DNA of 64,000 nt, taken from assembly GCF_963675165.1 (NCBI RefSeq), contig NC_087377.1, positions 4,650,042 to 4,714,041 of the forward strand. The letters run 5' to 3'. The notes under the pieces were generated by a model. The model did not search any database. It was given only the letters and a program-made list of their open reading frames with translations, and was not told where the DNA came from. Within the stretch, counting starts at the first letter, position 1. Every line of letters starts with the position of its first letter. The translations under genes and the position numbers were made by a program. This DNA is from Halichondria panicea (lineage: Eukaryota; Porifera; Demospongiae; Suberitida; Halichondriidae). This document shows positions 26,531-40,537 of this stretch, piece by piece.

Positions 26531-26538
26531 GGAAATTT

Positions 26539-26593
26539 GGTTGGTACTTGATAAAGACTCACGAATATAGCTGAGTCAGCAATAACTACAATA
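26539..26593 (+). repeat. Left terminal inverted repeat of the 14 kb transposon
   Basis: Matches the complement of 40474-40529 apart from two small gaps (GATA-AAGAC against GATATAAGAC, and CAAT-AACT against CAATAAACT). It contains the palindrome-like GCTGAGTCAGC. Confidence 0.9.
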
Positions 26594-26615
26594 ATAATTA
26601 TCTTTACTGTAATAC

Positions 26616-28640
26616 ATGGTTCCATGGTTCCTACTGTTCCAAGGTTCCATGGTTCCTACTGTTCCATGGTTCCAAGGTTCCACTGTCCCTACTGTTCCAT
26701 GGTTCCATGGTTCCTACTGTTCCATGGTTCCTACTGTTCCAAGGTTCCATGGTTCCTACTGTTCCATGGTTCCAAGGTTCCACTGTCCCTACTGTTCCAT
26801 GGTTCCATGGTTCCTACTGTTCCATGGTTCCTACTGTTCCAAGGTTCCATGGTTCCTACTGTTCCATGGTTCCAAGGTTCCACTGTCCCTACTGTTCCAT
26901 GGTTCCATGGTTCCTACTGTTCCATGGTTCCTACTGTTCCAAGGTTCCATGGTTCCTACTGTTCCATGGTTCCAAGGTTCCACTGTCCCTACTGTTCCAT
27001 GGTTCCATGGTTCCTACTGTTCCATGGTTCCTACTGTTCCATGGTTCCAAGGTTCCATGGTTATACTGTTCCATGGTTCCAAGGTTCCACTGTTCCTACT
27101 GTTCCATGGTTCCATGGTTCCACTGTTCCACTGTTCCATGGTTCCTACTGTTCCATGGTTCCATGGTTCCACTGTTCCACTGTTCCATGGTTCCTACTGT
27201 TCCATGGTTCCAAGGTTCCACTGTTCCTACTGTTCCATGGTTCCTACTGTTCCATGGTTCCAAGGTTCCATGGTTATACTGTTCCACGGTTCCAAGGTTC
27301 CACTGTTGCTACTGTTCCATGGTTCCTACTGTTCCATGGTTCCGTGGTTCCACTGTTCCTACTGTTCCATGGTTCCATGGTTCCAAGGTTCCAGTATTCC
27401 TACTGTTCCATGGTTCCAAGGTTCCACTGTTCCTACTATTCCATGGTTCCATAGTTCCACTGTTCCTACTGTTCCATGGTTCCTACTGTTCCATGGTTCC
27501 ATGGTTCCAAGGTTCCTACTGTTCCATGGTTCCTACTGTTCCATGGTTCCCACTGTTCCATGGTTCCCACTGTTCCATGGTTCCTACTGTTCCATGGTTC
27601 CCACTGTTCCATGGTTCCCACTGTTCCATGGTTCCTACTGTTCCATGGTTCCAAGGTTCCACTGTTCCTACTGTTCCATGGTTCCTACTGTTCCATGGTT
27701 CCAAGGTTCCATGGTTATACTGTTCCACGGTTCCAAGGTTCCACTGTTCCTACTGTTCCATGGTTCCATGGTTCCACTGTTCCTACTGTTCCATGGTTCC
27801 ATGGTTCCAAGGTTCCACTGTTCCTACTATTCCATGGTTCCATGGTTCCACTGTTCCTACTGTTCCATGGTTCCAAGGTTCCATGGTTTACTGTTCCATG
27901 GTTCCATGGTTCCACTGTTCCTACTGTTCCATGGTTCCAAGGTTCCACTGTCCTACTGTTCCATGGTTCCAAGGTTTCACTGTTCCTACTTTTCCATGGT
28001 TCCCAGGTTCCATGGTTCCTACTGTTCCATGGTTCCATGGTTCCAAGGTTCCACTGTTCCTACTGTTCCATGGTTCCAAGGTTCCATGGTTCCTACTGTT
28101 CCATGGTTCCAAGGTTCCATGGTTATACTGTTCCATGGTCCAAGGTTCCACTGTTCCTACTGTTCCATGGTTCCCACTGTTCCATGGTTCCTACTGTTCC
28201 ATGGTTCCCACTGTTCCATGGTTCCCACTGTTCCATGGTTCCCACTGTTTCATGGTTCCTACTGTTCCATATGGTTCCTTCCGTTCCATGGTTCCCACTG
28301 TTTCATGGTTCCTACTGTTCCATGGTTCCCTCCGTTCCACTGTTCCATCGTTCCTACTGTTCCATGGTTCCATGGTTCCAATTATGGTTCCCACTGTTCC
28401 ATGGTTCCCTCTCCGTTCCATGGTTCCGTCCGTTCCATGTTCCTACTGTTCTATGGCTCCTATACTGTTCCATGGTTCCTACTGTTCCATGGTTCCTACT
28501 GTTCCATAAATCCCACTGGTCCACTGTTCCATGCATGGTTCCTACTGTTCTGTGTTCCGTGCTGTTCCATTGTTCCATGGTTGTTCCAAGATTCCTACTG
28601 TTCCATGATTCCCACTGTTCCATGGCTCCTACTGTTAATG
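26616..28640. repeat. Left subterminal GTTCC minisatellite array
   Basis: About 2 kb of GTTCC spaced every 8-9 bp with variants CATG, AAGG, TACT and CACT between. The first 400 bp is a higher-order repeat of exactly 100 bp: the word CACTGTCCCT recurs at 26681, 26781, 26881 and 26981. The array decays toward the interior after about 28380. Long open frames here arise because the repeat lacks stops and are not genes. Confidence 0.95.
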
Positions 28641-29185
28641 TTCCATGCCACGTTCCATGGGTCCATCGGACCCTATACTGTCATGGTTCACTGTCCTGTG
28701 TCACACGGCATCATGTGGCATGGTTTCCACGCCATGCATGCACTTGGTTATTGTTGTGGATACATATTAACCACCATACATTACTGTGAGGGTTTAAATC
28801 CCTCCTTTTGGTGACCACAAACCACATGTTTGCACATGCTGGTTCATCTCCACATGTTTGCATGCTGGTTCTTGTAAGTATCTACATGATCTAGAATCCA
28901 GAGCTGTAAGTGTTGATCAATCAAGTTGTTGGAGGTGAGTTATTGATAGTTTTCAGTACATGTGCTATACTATTATTATAGGCTAGATTTAATAGAATCA
29001 TTGAGCCTCAGTCAAGTTTCCAGATTTCGTTGCCAGTGTCATCTATATGATATATATTATAGATATTCTAGAGACCCAGCAAGTTAATCAGAACTCAACA
29101 GAACTGGTGAGAGATTGCAATTATTATACAGCATGCTTGCATCCATTATGTAATAGATCAAGCTATATAAAAGGCCGGCCTGCAG
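28641..29185. other. Transposon interior, no gene seen
   Basis: Array remnants with no coding signal. A TATATAAAAGG box lies at 29164-29174, just before the short frame at 29186. Confidence 0.4.
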
Positions 29186-29424
29186 ATGGACGACAATGAC
29201 ATAATTATTAGCCCCAGTCAGCAGAGCACTTCAAGTAGATCCAGTACCGCGACAGTAAGTGGTGTGTGTATGTATACAGACGTATCTGCATTTATGCTGC
29301 ACTGAGCTTTCATATTAATTAATACATGCTGCATGCAGACGTCGACATCAAGTCAGCCAAGTCAGCGAAGTGAATTCTTTGTGAACTGGGAGGATGCCAG
29401 TGTCCATGTCGTGTTTGAAGAGTG
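29186..29424 (+). CDS. Possible small transposon protein, two exons
   Basis: Exon 29186-29254 (MDDNDIIISPSQQSTSSRSS, then TAT, then donor GTAAGT) joins in phase to 29339-29424 (TSTSSQPSQRSEFFVNWEDA through VHVVFEE, then a donor). The Ser/Gln-rich start followed by a WED..VHVVFEEW-like stretch looks coding. No later exon joins in phase: an open stretch at 29430-29531 (SNIKADFAIKLTGMIEAG) is in another frame. It may be a decayed gene or the 5' part of something spliced further. Confidence 0.35.
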
Positions 29425-29531
29425 GTGAGCACTCCAACATCAAAGCAGATTTCGCGATCAAGTTGACTGGCATGATCGAAGCCGGGTGTAACACTGCATG
29501 GGTACATGGCACTCATGAAGAGAAGGATTAA

Positions 29532-30066
29532 CATGCAAACAAAGTACGTTTTGCAGTCTAATTACATGCATGTAATGTACACGAGGTAGTACAAACAATA
29601 CAAACCAGATATCCAAATGGTGCAGGTAGTTGTACTCTGAACACCTATTGATTAGCTATAGAAGTTGTTATCCAACCATTTACAACTGAGTAGTAGAGTT
29701 AACCAGTAGTAGAGTAGTCAACAACACCCCTTGATCTGTGCACTGTGTATGTTTTGTGCATGTGCCCACTAGCCTTGATGCCCAATTATGCTCAAAATTT
29801 TGCCTATTAGTCTAGTCTCTAAGTCATGCAATTGTAGTCTTTAATTCTTACCAATTAGTCTTTAATTATTACCCAAAGTCTTTAATTATTACTCAAAATC
29901 ATCAACGAGAATTATACTGCAACATCACTGACGCTTCTATATAATCTTTTAAAGAACTATTATTGGTGAAAGAAATCTTAGAAAAGAGTCAACACTACGG
30001 TACTACTAGCACCTTCCATACGTATATACTCAGTAAGCCACTGCTATACTAGCCAGTCTAGCCACC
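29532..30066. other. Transposon interior, AT-rich spacer
   Basis: No gene seen. The word CTTTAATTNTTACC repeats three times near 29841-29890. The ATPase gene starts in a GCCACCATG context at the right edge. Confidence 0.4.
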
Positions 30067-33000
30067 ATGTGGACCATGTGGCGTAAAGGTAAACTATTAG
30101 CATTTTCATGCTTAGTGCTTCTATAAATACTTCCTACCTAAATTTGATAAAAATTGCTAATATTTTTTGCCCTTATTAGGCTGGCATAATGCTCAATGCT
30201 CCACTGCACCTATTCCACTTGATAAACCACATTTACATCTTCAACACCCACACATTTTGTGCTTTCACAATTTTTGTCACATGGAGGGAGGTCTTCAGGC
30301 TGACCATGCAGTATACCCCTGGAAGGATACTGACATGTGATTTGAACCCTAGAGTATCCTCAGAGTTTCAATGTTTCACTGACCTAAAGAAATCGATAAC
30401 ATACCTAGATAACCCAATATTGTGTTAATACAGTAAAGTTCCCACCATATTAAATAATTGTATTTATTTATTTGCATACAGGGAATGTTTCTTTACCCTG
30501 GATTCCGCTCAGTTTCGAAGCAAGTTCATGAATCAAATCAATAGCTCTTTTGGCAGTGGGGGAATGTCAATAGCACTCAATGAGCAACAGTTTTCTTCCT
30601 TCATACAACACCTTAAAAATGAAAGTGGCGCTGGGTTGCCAATCAAAAAAGCCGCTTGTGTGATTGGCCGGCAACCTTGTAACGAAGTGTGGGTGCTGGG
30701 AAAGGACTTGCAGGTATATAATAATTTCAGTGTATCTAAGTCTATAAATATGCTGGACTATAAGAAAACGGTTTCAAAGAAAATGGGTCCAAAGTTTAAG
30801 CTTGTTCTATTTGGAAAAACTAAACTGGTCATTTTATTTCAATCACTTAATTAACCATTGTTCCTCTCTCGGGAGATTTAATATTCTATGAATGGACCCG
30901 GCACACTGTATATTGCACAACCAAAAAATTGCACCTACACGACATTGTCAAGCATAAATGTATGCATTGACAGTATACTATTTTTTTGCTTTCTAAATAG
31001 ATTGATTCTGAAGGCAGACAAGTCCAGGTATCGGAGAGCAAGTACATGTGGTTAGATCACAGTGTTGTCGGAGAAGTCACCAACATTCCATCACGAGACC
31101 TGCTTCCAGTGATCAAACTTCCCCTGACCAACACAGGGCTAGCAATAAAACGCTTGGTTTCTGCTCTGAAGCTCACCATCAGACACAATTACTTCAGTTC
31201 ACTGCTGACAGTTGTTGGAGGGGTCATGGCCATGCATTACACCTATCTGGTCAAGGTGTATAAAGGATGCCCCATAGTGTATGCCGTTGGTCCTTCTGAG
31301 ACCGGAAAGTCTACATCAATTAGGGCTGCTCTTGCAATCTCTGGTTAGTATATCATGCATGCAATTTGTGATACTATTTCATCCCTACACTTGCAGGATG
31401 TTCTCAGGCGATGTATGTCAAGGGTTCCAATGCATTCTTTCTCGAAAGATCGGCGGTATCTTCCTTGCCGTATGCCATTGATGACCCCCCCAAGGCTAGG
31501 TCCAAGAACAACTCTGTGGATGTGAATGACCTCATTGTGGACTTGCACGATGGCTGCAAAACAGCAAACCTCAGGAGTGGGCCCCTGAAACCTATCTCGA
31601 TTCCATTGGTGGCATCCAACTTCAGCCAGAAGCAGGAAGATAGGTATACTATGTATATATATATAATTCAGGGTGTCATACAGGGGAAGGGGAAAGGGGG
31701 ATATCCCCCCTCTAGCTCCAACCCCCCCCCCCCCTAAAATTTGCATTCAGGTACTAGTTGGGGTCCATAGCTGGCAATTTTACATACTAACAGGGTAACA
31801 ATAACAGTTTACCTTTTTTTAGCAAGTTACTTATTTCCCCCTCTACTCAAAATCCTGTATGACACCTTATAATTATGTGTGATTTTCTACAATAGAGTAA
31901 CTACACGTACGTGCACCGTGTCCTTTGTCCTGCCCACCGTTGGGCCCACAACAATGGAGGAAGAGGAAAATTGGGCAGAATTGGATGACATCATTAGTGG
32001 AGGGGAGCTGTCATCATGTATCGGTTGGGCTATTTCTATCGGAGAATGCCCAACCCTGCAGGAAGAAGTAATGGCCATCAAAGACAAGCTTAGGCACTCG
32101 GTTGAGGGGAGAAAGTTAAAGAATTGGGCCATTCTTCTCTACTTTGTGAAGAAGGTGAAATAAATTATATATATCTCGTAAATGTTTAATTGTCGTTGCA
32201 CATTTATTAGCTTCTTTGTGTTGGCAATGAACATGAGGACGAGGAACCCCAAGAATTCCTAAACATTTTGGATTATGTCCGAGAAGGTGTGCGCTCCACA
32301 CAGTCACCGACCACTCTGCCGACTATTCTGGACCCAGACAGTGTGTTAAGCACAACATTAACCAACATTCTCAACTTCTGTCGCACCAAAAGTCTGAAAG
32401 ATGTAAGGACCTATGTTTTTTCCCTGTTTGGTTGGTATATTACTGTATGTGATGTGATGGGCCATACGCCACTACAGACTTATAATTGAAACTTTTGTGT
32501 ATACGTAATAGGTGAACGTGTTCGCTCGCTGTGGGTGCTATGTCCGGAAGCAAAATAATCAACGAAAGGAAGTTTTTGCTGTCGTACTTGAAGATGTAGG
32601 ATCTGCTCTTACGTATTCTCGAGCCGAAGTTAAACATATTGTGGAAACCTCGAATTATGGGACGTCGAGTTCCCACCGCTTCCTGCAGGGCACTCATGAT
32701 TCAAAGAAGAGAAGATGTCTAGCGTTTTATGTCGACAACATTCCTGAAAAGCTAAGAAGCAAACTGTTGGACGGTAACTGCCAGCTAGTTTTTTGCATGC
32801 ATGACAATTATATTGGGTTAACCCCTTTCAGTCACAACAAAGGAGTCGTACAACATTCATTGGAGCCTCGATGACGATGATGGTGTAGGTGAGTGCACTT
32901 ATAGCTAGGAGTTATTGCAATAACTGTTGCATTGTGACGTCCCCATAGTATTACTAGTTTGACTAACCTTTATTAGGCTGGTGGAAAGTATCTCGACCCT

Positions 33001-33761
33001 GTTGACATTATAATATCTCAAACTCTCACTACCGTGCAAGGTTCAGGGGTTGTAGCTAGGTGGTATATGTGTGCGAAGTGCCTGTCAAAATTGTTTGGAC
33101 TACGCCTGCAGCTTGTTTTTAACTATTTTCATCATAAAACACATAATTGAAGTGTATTATATGTATGTCATTATAATTATGACTGCATGCAGAGGATGGC
33201 AAGGATGATGATCCCCTCCCCCCCAGCCACAAGGAGGACGACGACCCCCTCACCCCCAGCGACAAGGAGGACGACGACCCCCTCCCCACCGATAGTGAGA
33301 AGAAAGACAATGATCCTCCCCCCAGTGACAAGGAGGACGACGACCCCATCCCCAGCTTAGGTGACAAGAAAGATGACGATCTTCCCCCCAGTGACAAGGA
33401 CGACGACGACCCCCTCTCCAGCGTGGGTGACACTAAAGATGACGATCTTCCCCCCAGTGACAAGGAGGACGACGACCCCCTCCCCAGCGTGGGTGACACT
33501 AAAGATGACGATCTTCCCCCCAGTGACAAGGAGGACGACGACCCCGTAGGTGACACTAAAGATGACGATCCCTCCCCCAACGACAACAATCCCCCCCCTA
33601 GCGAGAAGGCCAAACGTAAGAGAATCACTTCAGAATTCGAACCTGCTGCTGCTGCAAAGAAAAAACGTTTGGGGGAAGCAAGTCTCTTACGTGATGGCCT
33701 CGGGAAGTCGTACACACCCAAAAATCTGAAGAGGCGTACCCGCAACTCTAAAAAGAACTAA
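30067..33761 (+). CDS. Transposon P-loop ATPase (779 aa, ten exons)
   Basis: Exons 30067-30088, 30180-30336, 30482-30713, 31001-31343, 31397-31643, 31896-32154, 32211-32402, 32512-32773, 32832-32888 and 33193-33761. All GT-AG, all phase-compatible, total 2340 nt. The ATG has a strong GCCACC context. The N-terminal third has a His/Cys-rich segment (HILCFHNFCH). Walker A GPSETGKST begins at about residue 234. It is followed by an acidic motif (LPYAIDDP) and a polar strand ending in an Asn (IPLVASNF) that could be Walker B and sensor 1 of an AAA+/SF3-like or DUF927-like ATPase. The C-terminus has a KEDDDPLP-type acidic repeat and basic clusters (KAKRKR, KKKR) that look like nuclear signals. The exact family is not recognised. 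A role assisting transposition or replication is inference. Confidence 0.75.
33193..33600 (+). repeat. Coding minisatellite in the ATPase tail
   Basis: About 20 bp and 60 bp units (GACAAGGAGGACGACGACCC and relatives) repeat within the last exon, encoding Asp/Pro/Ser-rich repeats such as PPSDKEDDDP. Units near 33420-33540 are nearly identical, so copy number may vary between alleles. Confidence 0.85.
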
Positions 33762-34068
33762 CTGCCTTTGCATTGTCTGATTTCTAGTATTACGTGCAAC
33801 GTACCCCTTACTTTTGTTTGCTACAATGACATTCTTTATTGCTGGCTGATTCAGCGATAGTTTATCTATATGCAAAATATTATACGTACAACCCCTTTAT
33901 TATTATTATTGCTGGCTGATTCAGCGATAGTCCAGTATTATTCTTTACGTTAGGCTGTGTAATGTTCAAAAAATTTATGATCATAACAAAATGATTTTTC
34001 TCCTTACAATGTCTAGTAACTTTCAATATAGAGTCTATCAACACATTTTAAAACAAGCAATGTCCGGT
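33762..34068. other. Intergenic spacer between convergent transposon genes
   Basis: Holds two copies of TATTGCTGGCTGATTCAGCG (about 33838 and 33909), similar to the transposon end sequence TATTGCTGACTCAGC. A reverse-strand AATAAA (TTTATT at 33895) may end the transposase transcript. Confidence 0.55.
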
Positions 34069-36982
34069 TTACAATTGACCCTTCTTTAAATCATCATACT
34101 TAAGCTTACTTGCCACTTGAGATTCAGTTTTCGTAGGCAGTTTATGTTCGCAATAGGGAGCTATAGAGTAGTCCACCACATCATTGTATACTTTCTTTAT
34201 TTCTCCAACGTTTTTTTCTGTTGAAACAATTTCATACAATGTGATTGTCTCGAATTCAGACCACTGCCCTTTAGCCACGTCTTCGTTGCGATCCACAGCA
34301 AAACGTTTGCTGCTAGGTAAACTCATTTGTAAGTGATGTTTTCTACCCATCCTCTTAGCTGTTGTTGGTGATTCTGAAATAGGTTTCTTTCCATTTGGGT
34401 TGTGGCAATTTACACATTGACAATGTGAAGTACATTGCTGATTGTTTTTTAAACAGCAACACCTGGAAGCGTAAAATGGGCTGTTCTTGCAAGATGTGGA
34501 GCTAACTTTCTTGTTTGTCCCACATCTGCAGGAAATGTTAGTGCTGTTTTCTGTGTTTGCTGAAATTGGTGTATTTGCTGTGTTACTAACGAATGGTAGT
34601 GCAGCATCATAGTGTCCATTACCTAGAGAATTGTAGATCACGAATGCAGTAGCGCATGAATCTATGCTGCTTGTACATGTAGGCGTAACATAGGTAGTTG
34701 GAAGTCTGGTATCAGCCGAGAAAATCACAATAGAACACTGTAGACTATTAGCAATTGCAAGAGGCATTGCATTTCCCACGGGACTGATGTGAAAATTGGG
34801 CTGTAGAAATTTGTTGACCTCCGTCTCATAATCATCAACTAATGGGTCTATAAATGGTTCGTATTCAGCACGTCTACAACCAAGCATCTCAGTAACAAAC
34901 AATTGACGTAATTTCATAGCCAGGTTGCTGATATTTTCAGTTTCAATGCCATTGCTAATTCCCATGTTGCTGAGTATTAAATGCCACTCTTTCGATTGCG
35001 TTGCCACGTTTTTCGCAATGGCTGGGAAAAAACAGTTGCCGTCTCCTATTATAGGAGTGAAAATAAGCCCATTTGATTGCAATGTTTGACTTAGTTGTGA
35101 TTCTGAAGATACATCAGCAGAGCAGCCCTGTTCTAACCCACTGTTCGAAGCAAAAGGTTTAACAAGTTCTCCTAGCTTAACGAGACCCATGTACTTGAGT
35201 GACGTTAGGACGTGAAACTTTGTTAATGCATGTAGATAAATAACTTTTACCTCATCAAAATCAAACATGCAAGAGGATACATCAATCTCGCATTGGGTGT
35301 CAGTTTCTCGAGTTTCTCTGTCTTTGGGTAGTATTCCAATCGGTTGTAATGGCCCACAAGTAAGGTCATGTCTGAACCTACTGTTACAAATTGGTTCAGA
35401 CAAAGTCTTTGATTTCACTGTTTTGGCAGAGTTGTACGAATGAATTACAACTGTAAGTAGTGCATACGCTAAAAGAATACCAATTTTATTTCTATGTAAA
35501 ATTGAATTGATGTGATGGTGAAAGCGCTCATTACGATTTGTTCCTCCACCTATGGGAATATCACTTAAACAACCTTGAGATACATGCTTCTTTAGATTTG
35601 AAATAGCATGCATTGTCTCTTGCGTAAACACACCTAACCCCTTTTGATCCTTAACATTAATCCATTTGTTACTAAATGCCTCCATTTTGGACAGTATCAT
35701 AGCGGATCCAGGTGTTGAACATTTGCGTTTCACTTCGCTATCTCCATCAGTGCGGAATACCTGCGTTAGATCTTGTGTACATCTAAAATGAATATCACAC
35801 TTTCTGGATATTGTTCGTGTTATCCTCTGGACAGCATGGAATAGGTCCAACTTGACAGCAATGTCCATACCTAATACTGCCTGTATTTTTCTTCTTAGTT
35901 TACAACAGTCGTCAATGTATGCAGTTGTTAGGCCATGAGAGCGAGCTTTGAGGTTACGCAACAGTACCTCTATTGTATCAAAACTAGTCCCTCTAGTAAG
36001 TTGCCATGTTACAATTTGTCCACACTCATTCATTACTATAAAAAGGCTGTCATATTGATGTACCCATTTTCCATCATTTCGTACATATCCAATGTTTGCA
36101 GCAACCTTGAAAGTATGATCAAATGATATTGTACTTCCTAGTGGAATCTCACTTATTTCTCGTACATAAAGGTGCTCGTTCTGAAGAAACATAGCTAAAA
36201 AGCATTGTCTCAATATGTAGTCACTAGGGGTCTGTGAAAGGGGTATAGACCAAAAATCTGTTTCACTCACAGACTTTCCTAGTAGTAACTCGTGATTTCT
36301 GATCATGTCGCACACTTTTGCAAATGTAGTAAGTTTCTGCTCCATAATAACAGACTCAATGCTTTGAAATGTCATCCCTTTTATTACCAATGATGTGCAT
36401 GTGTCAATTAGAGAGGTAGTCATCCCAGTCCGTTTTAAAAGAATGAACGGCACAAGTGATGGTGATGGGAAGCGCCTAAGAATTAGCTCGTCATGAGCAA
36501 GCAGTCTGTGTTGGTTTGTGCACACATACACTGCACTTACCAAATACACAACATTATGCAAACCATGAATCACCCTTGGCTGAGCAGAAGAACTAGTACC
36601 ATCACACCAACGAGAATGCTGTGTTGGCAAATGACATTTTGGACAAAAAATTGAATGTGGAGGAAAAATCGAAGGGAAGGATACGTAAGGATTCCAAAAT
36701 ATTATCGATGGATTTTGAAGGAAGTGATCATTAGGAGATTCCGTATTACCAGGAAACGGGAACGGAACATTGATAACCACTCATGTAAACAGTCAGTTGC
36801 CTGACAGAATTATTATGATTAGAGATTAGTAGGTGACACTTATACATTTGTAAACACCAACCTTTAGAAATCTCCAACATCTCTTTGATTTGTTGTTGTA
36901 CATGCTCAGGTACAACTCCATTAACTTCTTGGACATGAGCCATGAGTACTAGATGTAGCAATATGAAACATATGGACAACAT
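34069..36982 (-). CDS. DDE-type transposase with OTU and CXC domains (about 943 aa)
   Basis: Exon 36862-36982 joins 34069-36779 on the minus strand through a GT-AG intron of 82 bp (codon split G/TG), giving 943 residues; a second ATG 13 residues in may be the real start. The N-terminal region has a zinc-like C-P-K-C/H cluster (FCPKCHLPTQHSRWC). Candidate catalytic acids in the joined model: Asp261 (SFDHTFK), Asp330/331 (YIDDCCKLR) and Glu458 (GGTNRNERFHHHIN). An OTU-type cysteine protease fold follows, with GDGNCFF (Asp620, Cys623) and a His at 763 (GNGHYDA). An MSL2/tesmin-like CXC cluster is at about 791-840 (CRCGTNKK ... RCCCLKNNQQC ... CQCVNC). OTU domains cleave ubiquitin; CXC domains bind DNA. 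The pairing resembles transposases of the KDZ or MULE type, but I cannot settle which. The frame is intact. Confidence 0.8.
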
Positions 36983-37074
36983 TGTTGACTATAGTTATCA
37001 AGCTTTTTTGTCTGTGGTTAGACAACTTAGAGGAGGGGCCAACACCATACATGGTTAGATCTACCCCCTAACCA

Positions 37075-40000
37075 CATAACCATGGAACGTGGAACAGTGG
37101 GAACAGTAGGAACCATGGAACAGTAGGAACCATGGAACGATGGAACAGTGGGAAGCATACAACGGTAGCGGGAACCATGGAACAGTAGGAACCATGGAAC
37201 GATGGAAAGAAGGGAACCATGGAACAGGGGAACAGAGGGAACATGGAACAGAGGGCACCATGGAACAGTGGAACGGAGGGAACCATGGAACAGTGGGAAC
37301 CATGGAACAGTGGAACGGAGGGAACCATGGAACGGAGGGAACCATGGAACGGAGGGAACCATGGAAAGTAGGAATCATGGAACCATGGAACCATGGAACG
37401 AAGGGAACAATGGAACGGTGGAACGGAGGGAACCATGGAACGGAGGGATACATGGAACGGTGGGAACCATTGAACGAGGTAACCATGGAACAGTGGAACG
37501 AAGGGAACCATGGAACAGTGGGAACCATAGAGCGATAGAACGGAGGGAACCGTGGAACAGTGGAACGGAGGGAACCATGGAACAGTGGGAACCATGAAAC
37601 AGAAGAACGGTGGGAATCATGGAACCTTGGAGCAATAGGAACCCTGGAACGGTGGGAACAGTAGGAACCATGGAACAGTAAACCATGGAACAGTAGGAAC
37701 CTTGGAACCATGGAACAGAGGGATACATGGAAGGGTGGGAACCATGGAACAGAAGAAAGGTGGGAACAGTAGGAACATTGGAACAGTAGGAACCATGGAA
37801 CAGTATAGGAGCTATGGAACCTTGGAACCATGGAACCATGGAACAGTAGGAACCTTGGAACCATGGAACAGCAGGAACCATGGAACACTGGAACAGTAGG
37901 AACCATGGAACCTTGGAACAGTAGGAACCATGGAACAGTAGGAACCATGGAACCATGGAACTATGAAACTGTGGAACCATGGAACGCTTGGAACTATGGA
38001 ACCATGGAACGCTTGGAACCATGGAACCATGGAACGCTTGGAACCACAACTAAGGAACCATGGAACTATGGAACGCTTGGAACCGTGGAACTATGGAACG
38101 CTTAACCATGGAACTGTGGAACCACGGAACGCTTGGAACTGTGGAACCTTGGAACCATAGAACTATGGAACCATGGAACGCTTGGAACCATGGAACGCTT
38201 GGAACTATGGAACCATGGAACTGTGGAACCATGGAACTATGGAACACTTAGAACCATGGAATTGTCGAACCGTGGAACCATGGAACTATGGAACCATGGA
38301 ACTGTGGAACCATGGAACTATGGAACGCTTGGAACCATGGAACCATGGAACTGTGGAACCATGGAACTATGGAACGCTTGGAACCATGGAACGCTTGGAA
38401 CTATGGAACTGTGGAACCGTGGAACCATAGAACTGGAACCATGGAACGCTTGGAACTATGGAACCATGGAACTGTGGAACCATGGAACTATGGAACGCTT
38501 GGAACCATGGAACTGTGGAACCGTGGAACCATGGAACTATGGAACCATGGAACTGTGGAACCATGGAACTGTGGAACGATGGAACTATGGAACGCTTGGA
38601 ACCATGGAACGCTTGGAACCATGGAACCATGAAACTGTGGAACCGTGGAACCATGGAACTGTGGAACCATGGAACTATGGAACGCTTGGAACCATGGAAC
38701 CGTGGAACTGTGGAACCATGGAACCATGGAACTATGGAACCATGGAACCATGGAACCGTGGAACCGTGGAACTGTGGAACCATGGAACTATGGAACGCTT
38801 GGAACCATGGAACGCTTGGAACCATGGAACCGTGGAACCGTGGAACTATGGAACCATGGAACTGTGGAACCGTGGAACCGTGGGACCGTGGAACCATGGA
38901 ACTATGGAACCATGGAACCATGGAACTGTGGAACCGTGGAACCATGGAACTATGGAACCATGGAACTGTGGAACCATGGAACTATGGAACGCTTGGAACC
39001 ATGGAACGCTTGGAACCATGGAACCATGGAACTGTGGAACCGTGGAACCATGGACCATGGAACTGTGGAACTGTGGAACCATGGAACTGTGGAACCATGG
39101 AATTATGGAACGCTTGGAACCATGGAACTGTGAAACCGTGGAACCATGGAACTATGGAACCATGGAACGCTTGGAACTATGGAACCATGGAACTGTGGAA
39201 CCATGGAACTATGGAACGCTTGGAACCATGGAACGCTTGGAACTATGGAACGCTTGGAACCATGGAACTGTGGAACCGTGGAACCATGGAACCGTGGAAC
39301 TGTGGAACCATGGAACTATGGAACGCTTGGAACCGAACCATGGAACTGTGGAACTATGGAACTATGGAACGCTTGGAACCATGGAACCGTGGAACTGTGG
39401 AACCATGGAACCATGGAACTATGGAACCATGGAACCATGGAACCGTGGAACCATGGAACTGTGGAACCATGGAACTATGGAACGCTTGGAACCATGGAAC
39501 GCTTGGAACCGTGGAACCGTGGAACCGTGGAACTATGGAACCATGGAACTGTGGAACTGTGGAACCGTGGAACCATGGAACTGTGGAACCATGGAACTAT
39601 GGAACGCTTGGAACCATGGAATCGTGGAACTGTGGAACCGTGGAACCATGGAACCGTGGAACCGTGGAACCGTGGAACTGTGGAACTGTGGAACCATGGA
39701 ACTATGGAACGCTTGGAACCATGGAACGCTTGGAACCATGGAACCATGGAACTGTGGAACCATGGAACTATGGAACGCTTGGAACCATGGAACCGTGGAA
39801 CTGTGGAACCATGGAACCATGGAACTATGGAACCGTGGAACCGTGGAACTGTGGAACCATGGAACTATGGAATGCTTGGAACCATGGAACGCTTGGAACC
39901 ATGGAACCGTGGAACCGTGGAACCGTGGAACTATGGAACCATGGAACCATGGAACTGTGGAACTGTGGAACCGTGGAACCATGGAACTGTGGAACCATGG

Positions 40001-40457
40001 AACTATGGAACGCTTGGAACCATGGAATCATGGAACTTTGGAACCGTGGAACCATGGAACCGTGGAACCGTGGAACTGTGGAACCATGGAACTATGGAAC
40101 GCTTGGAACCATGGAACGCTTGGAACCATGGAACGCTTGGAACCATGGAACGCTTGGAACCATGGAACCATGGAACTGTGGAACATGGAACTATGGAACG
40201 CTTGGAACTATGGAACGCTTGGAACCATGGAACCATAGAACTGTGGAACCGTGGAACCATGGAACTATGGAACCATGGAACCGTAGAACTGTGGAACCGT
40301 GGAACTATGGAACGCTTGGAACCATGGAACCGTGGAACTATGGAACCATGGAACCATGGAACTGTAGAACTGTGGAACCATGGAACTATGGAACCATGGA
40401 ACTGTGGAACTATGGAATGCTTGGAACCATGGAACTATAGAACCATGGAACACTAAG
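37075..40457. repeat. Right subterminal GGAAC minisatellite array
   Basis: About 3.4 kb of GGAAC every 8-9 bp, the reverse complement of the left array motif. The inner part (37080-37960) uses AGTAG and GGAGG spacers. The outer part is built from ATG GAACTATG GAACGCTTG and GTG spacers, a different composite unit. The many long open frames on both strands are repeat artefacts. Confidence 0.95.
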
Positions 40458-40473
40458 AACTACTACATGCTAT

Positions 40474-40529
40474 ATTGTAGTTTATTGCTGACTCAGCTAT
40501 ATTCGTGAGTCTTATATCAAGTACCAACC
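40474..40529 (-). repeat. Right terminal inverted repeat of the 14 kb transposon
   Basis: Inverted copy of 26539-26593, ending in TATCAAGTACCAACC directly before the second GGAAATTT at 40530-40537. Confidence 0.9.
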
Positions 40530-40537
40530 GGAAATTT

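Follow-up and report, generated by a model that had tools for sequence, protein, structure and literature searches.

It has long been asked whether eukaryotic MULE-type transposons copy themselves and, if so, by what means, and we know of no replication enzyme that such elements encode. In bacteria, Tn7-like transposons combine a transposase with a separate gene for the ATPase TnsC, and TnsC and MuB regulate target choice or transposase assembly. Accessory enzymes are also known in eukaryotic DDE transposons, as described in a section of PMC9587614 for the RecQ helicase of KolobokH. Our analysis of a 64,000-nucleotide stretch of the sponge Halichondria panicea (the window, C1:4650042-4714041; genome searched, 131 Mb in 39 contigs) reveals a DNA transposon of about 14 kb at positions 26539-40529, framed by an 8-bp duplication and by inverted ends and carrying subterminal arrays and two convergent genes, an ATPase on the plus strand and a transposase on the minus strand. 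On the basis of predicted folds, we consider it probable that an IS256/MULE-type transposase is combined here with a Cch/SaPI-Rep-type helicase, which likely uses the arrays for loading and then unwinds the element, or replicates it, during its movement. Among the open-access (PMC) titles and abstracts listed, none describes a eukaryotic DDE transposon with a helicase of the Cch/Rep type.

The boundaries of the element are well defined. Copies of GGAAATTT at 26531-26538 and 40530-40537 form a perfect duplication on both flanks, and the matching ends are terminal inverted repeats of about 48 bp at 26539-26585 (plus strand) and 40482-40529 (minus strand), the left differing from the right by a short indel; in both respects the initial annotation of this DNA was upheld. 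When the two flanks were joined with a single duplication and used as a genome query (161 bases), 40 rows were returned, 38 of which cross the join, with ten rows running from base 3 to base 161 at 87-92% identity, while the remaining two are the window's own halves and stop at the join. Since the target repeat has relatives that run through the join without a break, the window element is an insertion. Judged from the alignment spans, these uninterrupted sites are a paralogous empty site, so that the site without the insert foreseen earlier was recovered in paralogous rather than allelic form. The repeat that holds the element has many further copies in the first megabase of C1 (C1:71252-982111).

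Just inside the ends lie the inverted arrays that had also been proposed. The left array (26611-28760, plus strand, outer limits approximate) is built of short GTTCC/CCATGG units and contains GTTCC 216 times and GGAAC not once, whereas the right array (37071-40465, minus strand, outer limits likewise approximate) contains 370 GGAAC and no GTTCC; elsewhere in the window there is less than one of either per kb. By eye, a TTATTGCTGGCTGATTCAGCGATAG-like sequence that recalls the inner terminal repeat occurs twice between the convergent genes (about 33836-33865 and 33901-33931).

Other copies of the ends with arrays inside were expected, and a genome-wide search with the end sequence gave 25 matching rows, including the window's own two. 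Seven copies have both ends (L033, L034, L035, L036, L038, L039, and L040); they measure 1.7-6.0 kb, consist mostly of array, and are matched by neither the ATPase nor the transposase search. Duplications of 7/8 or 8/8 were found at five of the seven, perfect at two (GAAAAACT and AGGATCTC) and 7/8 at three, and none at the other two, one of which has flanks that are inverted and duplicated. Because most of these gene-less, largely array copies carry duplications, the ends and arrays seem to be sufficient in cis. Two of them, L035 and L036 (C13:2045382-2048312 and 2062705-2064395), share flanks with one inverted, as though the site had been duplicated in inverted orientation. A broken copy near C17:4.10 Mb retains remains of both genes in their convergent order.

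The transposase was examined through its residues and its predicted fold. Its main exon (34069-36779, minus strand) holds an open frame of 903 aa that ends in a stop codon and contains DDE, OTU, and CXC residues, as the initial annotation had recognized. The best solved fold match is ISCth4, and D312 and H315 of the DxxH motif typical of the IS256/MULE-type DDE fold are kept in 45/45 aligned transposases (alignment A1, comprising 44 of 219 relatives, 120 of them listed, and the window protein). The protein is thus predicted to be an IS256/MULE-type DDE core plus OTU and CXC. No Pfam MULE or Transposase_mut match above cut-off was obtained for the window transposase, and Transposase_mut matched one of 45 transposase relatives, at 0.0036. 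Structure searches against KDZ, MULE, hAT, and P families had been suggested; the fold matches obtained point to the IS256/MULE type, and the KDZ/Zisupton identity was rejected by domain search, since PF18758 (KDZ) was absent both from the window transposase and from the family matches listed for 45 relatives. While hAT and P elements likewise make 8-bp duplications, their transposases are not among the fold matches listed, which are led by ISCth4 and OTU proteins. The acceptor of the main exon (36779/36780) was predicted by eye, as were the splice signals of a possible first exon (36862-36982, minus strand), whose N-terminus is like that of relatives. This possible exon would encode a hydrophobic, signal-like N-terminus, likewise seen in the relatives P0085, P0114, and P0115.

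The ATPase gene was modeled on the plus strand with 10 exons and GT/AG boundaries at 9/9 introns. The predicted exons comprise exon 1 (29186-29254), exon 2 (29339-29424), exon 3 (30482-30713), exon 4 with the Walker A motif GPSETGKST (31001-31343), exon 5 with a Walker B-like IDDP and a sensor-like ASNF (31397-31643), exon 6 (31896-32154), exon 7 (32211-32402), exon 8 (32512-32773), exon 9 (32832-32888), and exon 10 (33193-33761), in which tandem KEDDDPLPPSD-like acidic repeats precede a basic tail that resembles a nuclear signal. Used alone as a protein query, the spliced sequence found no relatives, whereas an alignment of four relatives used as query found 70, one of which (P0168) is an annotated protein of the sponge Amphimedon queenslandica; two scans of viral contigs confirmed no relatives.

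For the ATPase family, the closest solved structures to the fold predicted on a relative are the replication helicases Cch, SaPIBov1 Rep, MCM, and poxvirus D5/E5, and from this fold the protein is predicted to be a Cch/SaPI-Rep-type hexameric DNA helicase. Of the 38 relatives in alignment A3 (drawn from the 70), 15 gave a DUF927 match at E ≤ 0.01, the strongest at 7.8e-7. Compared with SCCmec Cch and SaPIBov1 Rep (DUF927, MCM-like), the overall predicted fold is the same at an identity of just 10-13%, and while the bacterial proteins are partnered with site-specific recombinases, the predicted helicase of the window comes from a eukaryotic gene with introns that neighbors one for a DDE transposase. 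This bears on the likeness to bacterial transposons with an ATPase partner raised in the initial annotation. The transposase with a separate P-loop ATPase gene does resemble the layout of Tn7-like elements, yet a Tn7-like pair is not the favored analogy because the ATPase is predicted to be like the replication helicases of bacterial mobile islands, which its family fits best. It is quite unlikely that the ATPase governs target choice or the assembly of the transposase in the manner of TnsC and MuB, without unwinding DNA; an AAA-type P-loop protein found repeatedly next to transposases would suit such a role, but replication helicases supply the nearest solved folds, and TnsC is not among the fold matches listed, although such a listing does not by itself discount it.

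The same structural likeness invites another explanation, in which the element is excised as a circle that the helicase replicates as an episome, outside the transposition reaction itself. Excisable bacterial islands encode the replication helicases to which its predicted fold comes closest (as outlined in part of PMC7581432), and the arrays resemble origin repeats. However, the arrays stand at both ends rather than at a single site, and domain searches recognized no polymerase or primase domain in either window protein, making an episome very unlikely and the least probable of the alternatives weighed here.

The pairing of ATPase and transposase is further strengthened by a second element family in the same genome. 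At seven loci, an ATPase that shares 42-44% identity with that of the window has on the other strand a neighboring transposase with Pfam MULE (PF10551; E 6.9e-11 and 42.9 bits against a cut-off of 27.6, in one exon of the C7 copy), a domain match that the window transposase lacks. A search with the ends of this family, about 125 bp long, returned 17 rows; 14 rows make up the paired ends of seven elements of 7.6-13.7 kb, and both genes are bracketed by the ends in 7/7 of them. In the C7 copy, the one copy read fully, the arrays are again inverted (GAGTCT 67 left and 0 right, AGACTC 0 and 54) with a unit that differs from that of the window element. Target duplications match at 9/9 in five of the seven copies, which agrees with the 9-bp duplication of MULE elements, and at 8/8 in one, while none was found at the C7:2254075 copy, where it was sought. 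Loci compared on one strand (groups of two and five) are 97.9-99.9% identical over about 3.7-3.8 kb. Near-identical copies, both genes inside the ends, and duplications together point to recent movement of second-family elements carrying both genes. Other frames of the second-family transposase show zinc-finger, SWIM-like, and PHD-like motifs by eye.

A third group of ATPase relatives adjoins genes that encode CxC5, a cluster of cysteines associated with KDZ (E 1.4e-11 for the C13 gene), such that 7/8 CxC5 loci lie within 5.2 kb of an ATPase relative. Because the genome-wide KDZ search gave no KDZ row at the CxC5 places beside ATPases, the transposase nature of these genes is only putative, and the likeness of the system to KDZ (Kyakuja-Dileera-Zisupton) elements is confined to this adjacency. 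Four copies of the third ATPase group are nearly identical (L069; C1:16756802, C1:15661599, C13:4146414, and C1:17164324). The KDZ domain itself gave 53 rows genome-wide, several nearly alike, which suggests a separate expanded KDZ family.

Taken over the genome, an ATPase locus (n = 30) was found within 10 kb of 5/15 OTU-CXC, 10/14 MULE-B, and 7/8 CxC5 loci, whereas proximity by chance is expected at about 0.005 per locus; binomial values for this pairing are merely a guide because copies of one family are not independent. These counts follow from merging 28 OTU-CXC rows to 15 loci and, after omission of 16 short-fragment rows from 34 (many being repeated pieces of the first ~30 residues), the other 18 MULE-B rows to 14 loci. 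Merging of the ATPase rows left 30 loci, and E-values are weak at several of these (1e-6 to 6e-4 in the CxC5-adjacent group except at C13), and other merging of rows gave 6/16, 11/15, and 16/23 ATPase loci. The recurrence of ATPase relatives beside transposases supports the pairing of a P-loop ATPase with a transposase that was noted at the outset.

Several observations weigh against a helicase that acts in movement. No ATPase was found within 10 kb of 10/15 OTU-CXC and 4/14 MULE-B loci, and no partner was found at 6/30 ATPase loci, many of the loci in either case being fragments; in the third group, moreover, Walker A is altered to GNVSLGKT. The window ATPase has no family match above cut-off, DUF927 included, and the DUF927 family model run against the whole genome at E 1e-3 gave 0 rows. 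Profile comparison of the window and second-family transposases was not significant (probability 0.3%). In addition, the window's ATPase gene is likely damaged in exon 2, where the sequence that matches an unbroken N-terminal stretch of P0168 and of the second family falls into three different frames (29339-29530), part of which the splice model omits. Of the two intact convergent spliced genes that were initially described, the convergence and the open transposase frame hold, but the intactness of both is unsupported because of this split segment, and so is a recent movement of the window copy by its own ATPase.

The absent partners and the split exon would also suit an ATPase that is a passenger, riding in the elements without a part in their movement. 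The gene, however, is kept in 7/7 end-paired copies of the second family, and its relatives stand beside three kinds of gene, a recurrence that is rare for a passenger; we regard this explanation as unlikely.

Under the favored reading of a helicase engaged in movement, the DDE core of the transposase would act on and join the element ends, and the helicase would assemble on the arrays as loading sites in the manner of Rep-type helicases on origin repeats. By opening the strand-transfer intermediate for host polymerases, it could render movement replicative and copy-out/paste-in-like, while OTU would likely remove ubiquitin from chromatin or from the transposase itself, and binding of DNA would likely fall to CXC. 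Copy-out/paste-in elements are described as requiring figure-eight replication (in a section of PMC7780238). More tentatively, and with less than even confidence, a new class of animal transposons may be envisaged in which several transposases (OTU-CXC IS256-like, canonical MULE, and CxC5/KDZ-associated) share an exchangeable Cch/SaPI-Rep-type helicase module, iteron-like arrays, and copy-out before paste-in. A helicase family of bacterial islands appears time and again in this one genome as partner to at least two distinct transposases, the arrays look like loading sites, and elements with both transposase and helicase would likely help to copy themselves. With its seven end-paired copies, of which six show duplications and most are nearly identical, the second family makes the need for particular genes and arrays, as well as replicative movement itself, directly testable.

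In comparison with the IS256 family (ISCth4) and eukaryotic MULE/MuDR elements, the window element adds OTU, CXC, a helicase-like partner gene, and kilobase-scale inverted arrays. Kolobok is likewise a eukaryotic DDE lineage with a helicase (RecQ in KolobokH and others; PMC9587614), but there RecQ lies downstream of the transposase domain, the duplications are 4-bp TTAA, and the helicase belongs to another family.

Further arrangements were seen around ATPase relatives. On C1, a transposase at 5248812 and an ATPase at 5241740 lie about 6 kb apart and were counted as neighbors; that the two form a single element is not supported, no left array having been found in C1:5238600-5254900. To the right of a 37%-identical transposase, a third array unit, CCTACATTA, occurs in 100 copies of one orientation (L029 6851-8606; C1:5251851-5253606), and no array opposite to it was seen in the same interval. 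Lastly, RecQ-like helicase frames recognized by eye (L062 2822-3559, minus strand) adjoin the ATPase copy at C10:4195286.
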